A DNA stretch of 64,000 bases from Wenzhouxiangella sp. XN24 (GTDB taxonomy: Bacteria; Pseudomonadota; Gammaproteobacteria; Steroidobacterales; XN24). The notes beneath the pieces are model-generated. The model was not told where the DNA came from and ran no database searches. It worked only from the letters and a program-made list of their open reading frames with translations. A program made the translations under genes and the position numbers. This document shows positions 57,644 through 57,694 of this stretch, piece after piece; position 1 is the first letter of the stretch; each line of letters starts with the position of its first letter. Where the stretch lies: the NCBI RefSeq assembly GCF_011064545.1, contig NZ_JAAMFG010000034.1:310001-374000 (forward strand). Direction: 5' to 3'.

Positions 57644-57694
57644 TGGAGCGGGAAACGAGACTCGAACTCGCGACCCCAAGCTTGGCAAGGTTGT
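57644..57694 (-). other. Truncated tRNA-Gly(GCC), putative attachment site of an integrated element
   Basis: 51 nt of the 3' part of tRNA-Gly(GCC): anticodon arm ACAACCTTGCCAAG, then T arm with GAGTTCGAGTCTC, acceptor 3' strand TTCCCGC and TCCA. The acceptor 5' strand and D arm are missing; the sequence before the anticodon arm is unrelated. One base in the anticodon stem (C for the usual G) breaks a pair. A 3' fragment of this kind is what site-specific integrases leave at the far end of an element that inserted into a tRNA. Confidence 0.8.

Follow-up and report, generated by a model that had tools for sequence, protein, structure and literature searches.

The window analysed here, the whole 64,000-nucleotide stretch (G000:C34:310001-374000), contains toward its right end two complete tRNA genes, part of a third, a phosphoesterase gene and the first portion of a block of protein-coding genes (Table 1). 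The tRNA part matches positions 26-76 of tRNA-Gly(GCC) over 51 nt at 98% identity (E = 5e-19), with one base different. This match, together with the absence of positions 1-25, confirms the original prediction that a 51-nt 3' part of tRNA-Gly ending in CCA stands here without its 5' half. As the locus contains both an anticodon and a CCA end, one could imagine that it is a whole tRNA, split or divergent, which gene finders overlooked, a reading that we regard as scarcely credible given the missing 25 positions and the following results. The only tRNAs that ARAGORN reports in the window are tRNA-Leu and tRNA-Cys, with no complete tRNA at the fragment, and Rfam at its gathering threshold likewise reports just these two; a complete tRNA folded by covariance search, an outcome that would speak against a fragment, was thus looked for, and Rfam gives none at this locus. 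Moreover, the 60-nt block folds no better than shuffled sequences (z = -0.06), in contrast to the intact tRNA (z = -2.25). These three comparisons rule out a complete tRNA at this position.

Table 1 Features at the right end of the window (positions are those of the window unless a contig or locus is named)
Feature	Position	Strand	Basis or remark
tRNA-Leu(TAA)	56283..56369	-	ARAGORN; next in same cluster
tRNA-Cys(GCA)	56392..56465	-	ARAGORN; gene next to tRNA-Gly in both congeners
Phosphoesterase gene	56555..57439	-	Between fragment and tRNA-Cys; outside att-bounded island; not at this site in congeners
Terminator-like hairpin followed by U's	57535..57569	-	About 75 nt past fragment CCA
Attachment-site repeat (attR)	57635..57694	-	Partner copy at C34:382170-382229, outside window
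tRNA-Gly(GCC) 3' fragment, tRNA positions 26-76	57644..57694	-	Displaced half of original gene
Island part inside window	57695..64000		14.5-kb island continues to C34:382169
Pair of adjoining 11-bp words, AGTACTAAAAA and a less exact copy	57784..57805	-	Tandem read by eye; probable integrase arm-type sites
Tyrosine-integrase remnant, N-terminal arm-binding domain only	57896..58177	+	Just inside fragment end
CPBP/Rce1-like membrane protease gene	58607..59446	-	Pfam scan
DUF2268-like protease gene	59595..60539	-	Just below Pfam cut-off
ORF, 218 aa	60608..61264	-	No family found (Pfam, PHROGs, PADLOC)
TPR-repeat protein gene	61353..62093	-	Pfam scan
Class D beta-lactamase gene	62293..63120	-	Nearest NCBIfam models OXA-2/OXA-46
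AraC-type regulator with GyrI-like/Cass2 domain	63213..64000, past window end (L003 7214-8158)	-	

An intact tRNA-Gly(GCC) gene had been expected to the right of base 64000, with an island in between. A rightward search of the contig finds it at C34:382179-382254, in the same orientation and just downstream of pgsA, and its 3' part matches the fragment; the spacing between the two copies is 14,535 bp. They share a 60-bp repeat with one mismatch, which includes 9 bases beyond CCA (genome search, E = 2e-23) and far exceeds a chance match. The mismatch sits in the anticodon stem of the fragment copy, and the variant base found there is absent from intact tRNA-Gly copies in this genome and in the family. 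A promoter-like TTGACA...TTAGAATTGCGC precedes the intact gene and by eye resembles the corresponding sequence in the congeners G001 and G002; in its place the fragment has element sequence. The name pgsA follows from a CDP-alcohol phosphatidyltransferase domain and from position, and the adjacent uvrC was assigned by reading its ORF. At E ≤ 0.01, the assembly (98.7% complete, 37 contigs) contains no third tRNA-Gly fragment and no second near-identical tRNA-Gly(GCC); three weaker tRNA-Gly matches span positions 8-62, 8-49 and 8-27.

The block between the repeats has a G+C content of ~57%, versus ~65% or more in the flanks. In 1-kb steps, values range from 0.535 to 0.598 across L003 1501 to 14000, compared with 0.646 in the one step to the left and 0.66-0.70 to the right; the Ada stretch at the right end reaches 0.67 and is flank-like. 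Beyond the genes in Table 1, the cargo comprises DUF1203 and ABM-domain proteins, a beta-lactamase-family serine hydrolase, an FAD monooxygenase, a TetR-type regulator, a dienelactone-hydrolase-like protein and an Ada-type alkyltransferase. Full-length relatives of the last (59-61%) occur in four genomes of the order, drawn from two other families (G024, G010, G014 and G027); at E ≤ 1e-20, five of the six family genomes lack a full-length match and G006 has one (38%). The island class D beta-lactamase scores above the general class D cut-off and below the OXA-2 and OXA-46 subfamily cut-offs. Its relatives in the congeners are distant (35-36%), its best identity to a plasmid gene is 70% among the five matches listed, and no plasmid record exceeds 80% identity. 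Separately, a second class D beta-lactamase-like gene lies well outside the island (window 34969-35763, + strand); it is 56% identical to the island gene, and the congeners have only distant matches (35-36%).

Apart from an integrase remnant, Pfam finds nothing associated with mobility in 16 island ORFs. Phage structural or replication genes are likewise absent from these ORFs by Pfam, and PHROGs gives no match for the three tested; ten of the 16 were compared with PADLOC defence models, with no match at E ≤ 0.01, and no clear integron attC site is visible by eye in the gaps between island genes. Two island ORFs, L003 3596-4540 (window 59595-60539, the DUF2268-like gene) and L003 13824-14543 (no Pfam match), look related by eye; they lie in opposite orientations near the two island ends and share a 26-nt inverted repeat with 81% identity.

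The tyrosine-integrase remnant is broken twice. There is an in-frame stop at codon 8, and similarity to full-length relatives (~400 aa) ends after ~80 residues, leaving about three quarters of the protein missing. Because the score against Pfam Arm-DNA-bind_3 (25.7 bits) is just below the cut-off of 27, and NCBIfam and PHROGs return no match, the assignment of the remnant as an integrase rests on these full-length relatives. The catalytic part appears to be gone from the island, as PF00589 has four matches in the genome and none inside the island, and tblastn with eight open frames of relatives' integrases, those of G145 and G256 being identical, yields, beyond the N-terminal part, only matches with E ≥ 0.19, with one exception. 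The exceptional match, obtained with the G150 frame (E = 1.6e-4, island 14737-14814), is to the tRNA itself rather than to a catalytic domain, because the G150 frame extends backward across the tRNA half beside it; this read-through also inflates the best match of G150.

Unoccupied versions of the site, whose presence in related genomes had been proposed as a check, exist in G001 and G002, where pgsA, tRNA-Gly, 104 bp and tRNA-Cys follow one another uninterrupted. In the genome studied here, by contrast, tRNA-Cys and tRNA-Leu come after the fragment and not after the intact tRNA-Gly. More widely, Gly and Cys genes occur together within the flank in 11 of 29 pgsA loci from relatives (L006-L034). 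In each of the six other family genomes (G001-G006), tRNA-Gly is matched once over its full length at 100%, and no 3' fragment appears at E ≤ 0.01, the search in G003 being limited by a contig that stops 613 bp beyond tRNA-Gly; the window's genome is therefore the occupied one, and the opposite outcome, a fragment without an element in relatives, was not seen among these six. A tRNA-Gly match was present in 77 of 87 further loci (L037-L123), and none had more than one, so there were no second copies or pieces. The tRNA Gly-Cys-Leu cluster is itself interrupted between Cys and Leu in G002 (7.5 kb) and G001 (2.3 kb; L037 and L038), and G004 (L041) has an extra 0.46 and 0.86 kb between cluster tRNAs.

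Of 296 genomes of the order, 13, this one included, have homologs of the integrase remnant (E ≤ 1e-4); they occupy 14 places, 13 of which are outside the present genome. Beside six of these 13 integrases (in G145, G256, G147, G235, G150 and G132, from two other families) lies a tRNA-Gly 3' half that begins at tRNA position 26-30 and has the same relative orientation as ours. The distance from the Gly half to the start of the matched integrase is ~170-190 nt in these six and 238 nt here; because the G145 and G256 integrases are identical, the six cases are not all independent. Five of the other integrases adjoin the 3' half of another tRNA, by eye two resembling Glu(CTC), two Val(CAC) and one another non-Gly tRNA, and at two places (L140 and L141) no tRNA end was found. 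In L137, the tRNA end lies ~190 nt before the integrase match.

One sister element is complete, that in G132, where an intact tRNA-Gly beside pgsA (C29:24172-24247) and a 3' half (33953-34002) enclose 9.8 kb, bounded by a 55-bp repeat with one mismatch. The two elements share the tRNA-Gly(GCC) target at the pgsA locus, the layout, a homologous integrase and the offsets of their end repeats. They differ in that the G132 element is shorter, has different cargo and retains an intact integrase of 388 aa, which reads away from the tRNA half; PHROGs also recognizes phage head and tail genes in it, with matches to head and tape-measure families. Among 50,697 records of named phages, the G132 integrase has one weak match (23% identity). 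Its relatives in IMG/VR occupy three loci, one of which (L189) has the 3' end of another tRNA near the integrase start; tRNA-Gly was not seen at these loci, two of which (L187 and L188) lack the sequence upstream of the integrase.

Comparison of the inner ends of the two elements reveals a further parallel. The longest word common to both inner ends is AGTACTAAAAA (11 nt) in the island, recurring at its other end at L003 16126-16136, and TTGTACGGTACTG (13 nt) in the G132 element. On the integrase side these repeats lie ~100 nt from the core, at offsets of 34 and 124 in the compared island stretches and 39 and 123 in those of G132, so that between these two elements, the only ones compared, the sequences differ and the offsets are kept. 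Neither repeat was reached in any of 200 shuffles, which preserve single-base composition only, and cross comparisons between the two elements share words of only 6 nt. With moderate confidence, we take the end repeats to be probable arm-type integrase sites.

The proposal that the fragment is the scar of integration into a tRNA gene agrees with the intact partner, the empty sites, the broken integrase and the sister elements. The low G+C over most of the block and the scarcity of full-length Ada relatives in the family also speak for it, whereas the flank-like G+C of the Ada gene speaks against it. Almost certainly, an element with a tyrosine integrase integrated at tRNA-Gly(GCC), most likely in the anticodon loop, and then decayed. 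The position of the crossover, in which we have moderate confidence, is suggested by the start of the shared block at the anticodon stem-loop, whose symmetric stem would flank it; the block starts at tRNA position 26 in the island and at 26-28 in the six relatives, with 30 for G132 in a second comparison. In this model, the attP site of a mobile element would have carried the 3' half of tRNA-Gly(GCC) and recombined with the host gene, the sole close match in the assembly, in a reaction catalysed by the tyrosine integrase with strand exchange most likely at the anticodon loop. This would have joined the native promoter and 5' half to the 3' half brought by the element, and so the tRNA would be whole at the right end. 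Meanwhile, the host's own 3' half would have been displaced 14.5 kb leftward, where it would no longer yield a tRNA. The integrase gene beside this displaced half would have been broken twice at some later time, and the island is therefore probably now fixed, having lost its mobility. tRNA fragments can have other origins, and a piece of a tRNA duplicated or recombined in the ordinary way could in principle give such a fragment without site-specific integration. Given the integrase remnant, the unoccupied sites, the same half and layout in sister elements, and the paired end repeats, we consider this very improbable here.

The left junction is less simple than the right. From the fragment to tRNA-Cys there is 1.18 kb (56466-57634) that includes the phosphoesterase gene, and because this segment replaces the 104-bp spacer of the congeners, the junction has no clean counterpart in an empty site. 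The last ~60 nt before tRNA-Cys again resemble the congeners by eye. As the flank differs from the spacer of the congeners and the likeness then resumes, we infer an extra insertion of ~1.1 kb, which may be the remnant of an earlier island or a plain insertion. The hairpin downstream of the fragment folds well (z = -3.6; 2 of 200 shuffles fold equally well), and the original prediction regarded it as the native terminator of the tRNA. That part of the prediction is not supported, because a phosphoesterase segment absent from the congener site separates the fragment from tRNA-Cys; the flank differs from that of G001 and G002, where by eye a different GC-rich hairpin followed by T's starts ~10 nt past CCA.

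One way to account for this flank is that two islands were stacked, the older of them, at the same tRNA, surviving as the phosphoesterase segment (~56.5-57.6 kb) and the later one being the 14.5-kb island, in which case the left flank of the fragment would itself be foreign. The segment starts directly after the tRNA end, where the congeners have their spacer and hairpin, and its gene is rare, being found in one of 38 relatives, at another place and within a longer protein (in G001, a 1014-aa protein ~265 kb from tRNA-Gly has the homologous domain at its end). Moreover, the 9 bp past CCA are common to both att copies, of which the congeners have just the first 2-3. Against these points, the genome contains no third tRNA-Gly 3' fragment, no arm-like repeat is visible by eye in the left flank of the fragment, and extra sequence between cluster tRNAs is also present in G001, G002 and G004, so insertions here may need no integrase. 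On balance, we think stacking possible but unlikely.

How does this island compare with known systems? Elements of the ICEclc and PAGI-2 type also target the 3' end of tRNA-Gly; they are conjugative and far larger, their integrase is longer and their target repeat is short. In contrast to these conjugative elements, no conjugation domain was recognized in the 16 island ORFs scanned, and the relaxase and type IV secretion domains expected of an integrative and conjugative element are absent from them (Pfam, E ≤ 0.001). The closer parallel is with islands that the Islander method (PMC4383910) defines by a tRNA gene and displaced fragment pair. Like those islands, the present one lies between an intact tRNA and a displaced 3' fragment of the same orientation, with the fragment downstream of the complete tRNA and a length of 14.5 kb that falls within the 2-200 kb range given there. 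The same source reports a 3' fragment in 3760 of 3919 islands and an anticodon-centred attP class, 'A', in 2083 of 3919; classes of sites within tRNA genes also figure, with citation of Williams 2002, in a review of archaeal recombinases (PMC8371274) and in a paper on strain Pf-5 (PMC2647930). Because Islander defines islands by this same pair, ours is an ordinary, decayed member of the type: a textbook tRNA genomic island whose integrase no longer works. However, Islander discards candidates without an integrase ORF, and an island with only a broken one might be missed. More generally, integrase-based finders may overlook this island because its integrase is ruined and the tRNA scar alone is left.

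These results delimit the 14.5-kb acquired block exactly at both ends, in a gammaproteobacterial genus from which only three genomes were searched. The lineage is probably environmental, to judge by the name of a congener, and the class D beta-lactamase-like gene in the block is then a minor addition to the record of where such genes reside. In addition, the related elements that are intact delineate a group of integrases whose targets include several tRNAs. There is perhaps an even chance that this clade switched tRNA targets repeatedly while keeping its layout of a tRNA 3' half, arm repeats and an integrase reading away; if so, the clade would be a natural series in which to study shifts of a tyrosine integrase from one anticodon-loop target to another. 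At one of the homologous loci (L175, G133:C14), two integrase genes with open frames of 417 and 215 aa lie ~2.5 kb apart, the first preceded by the 3' end of a non-glycine tRNA, an arrangement that could represent stacked elements.
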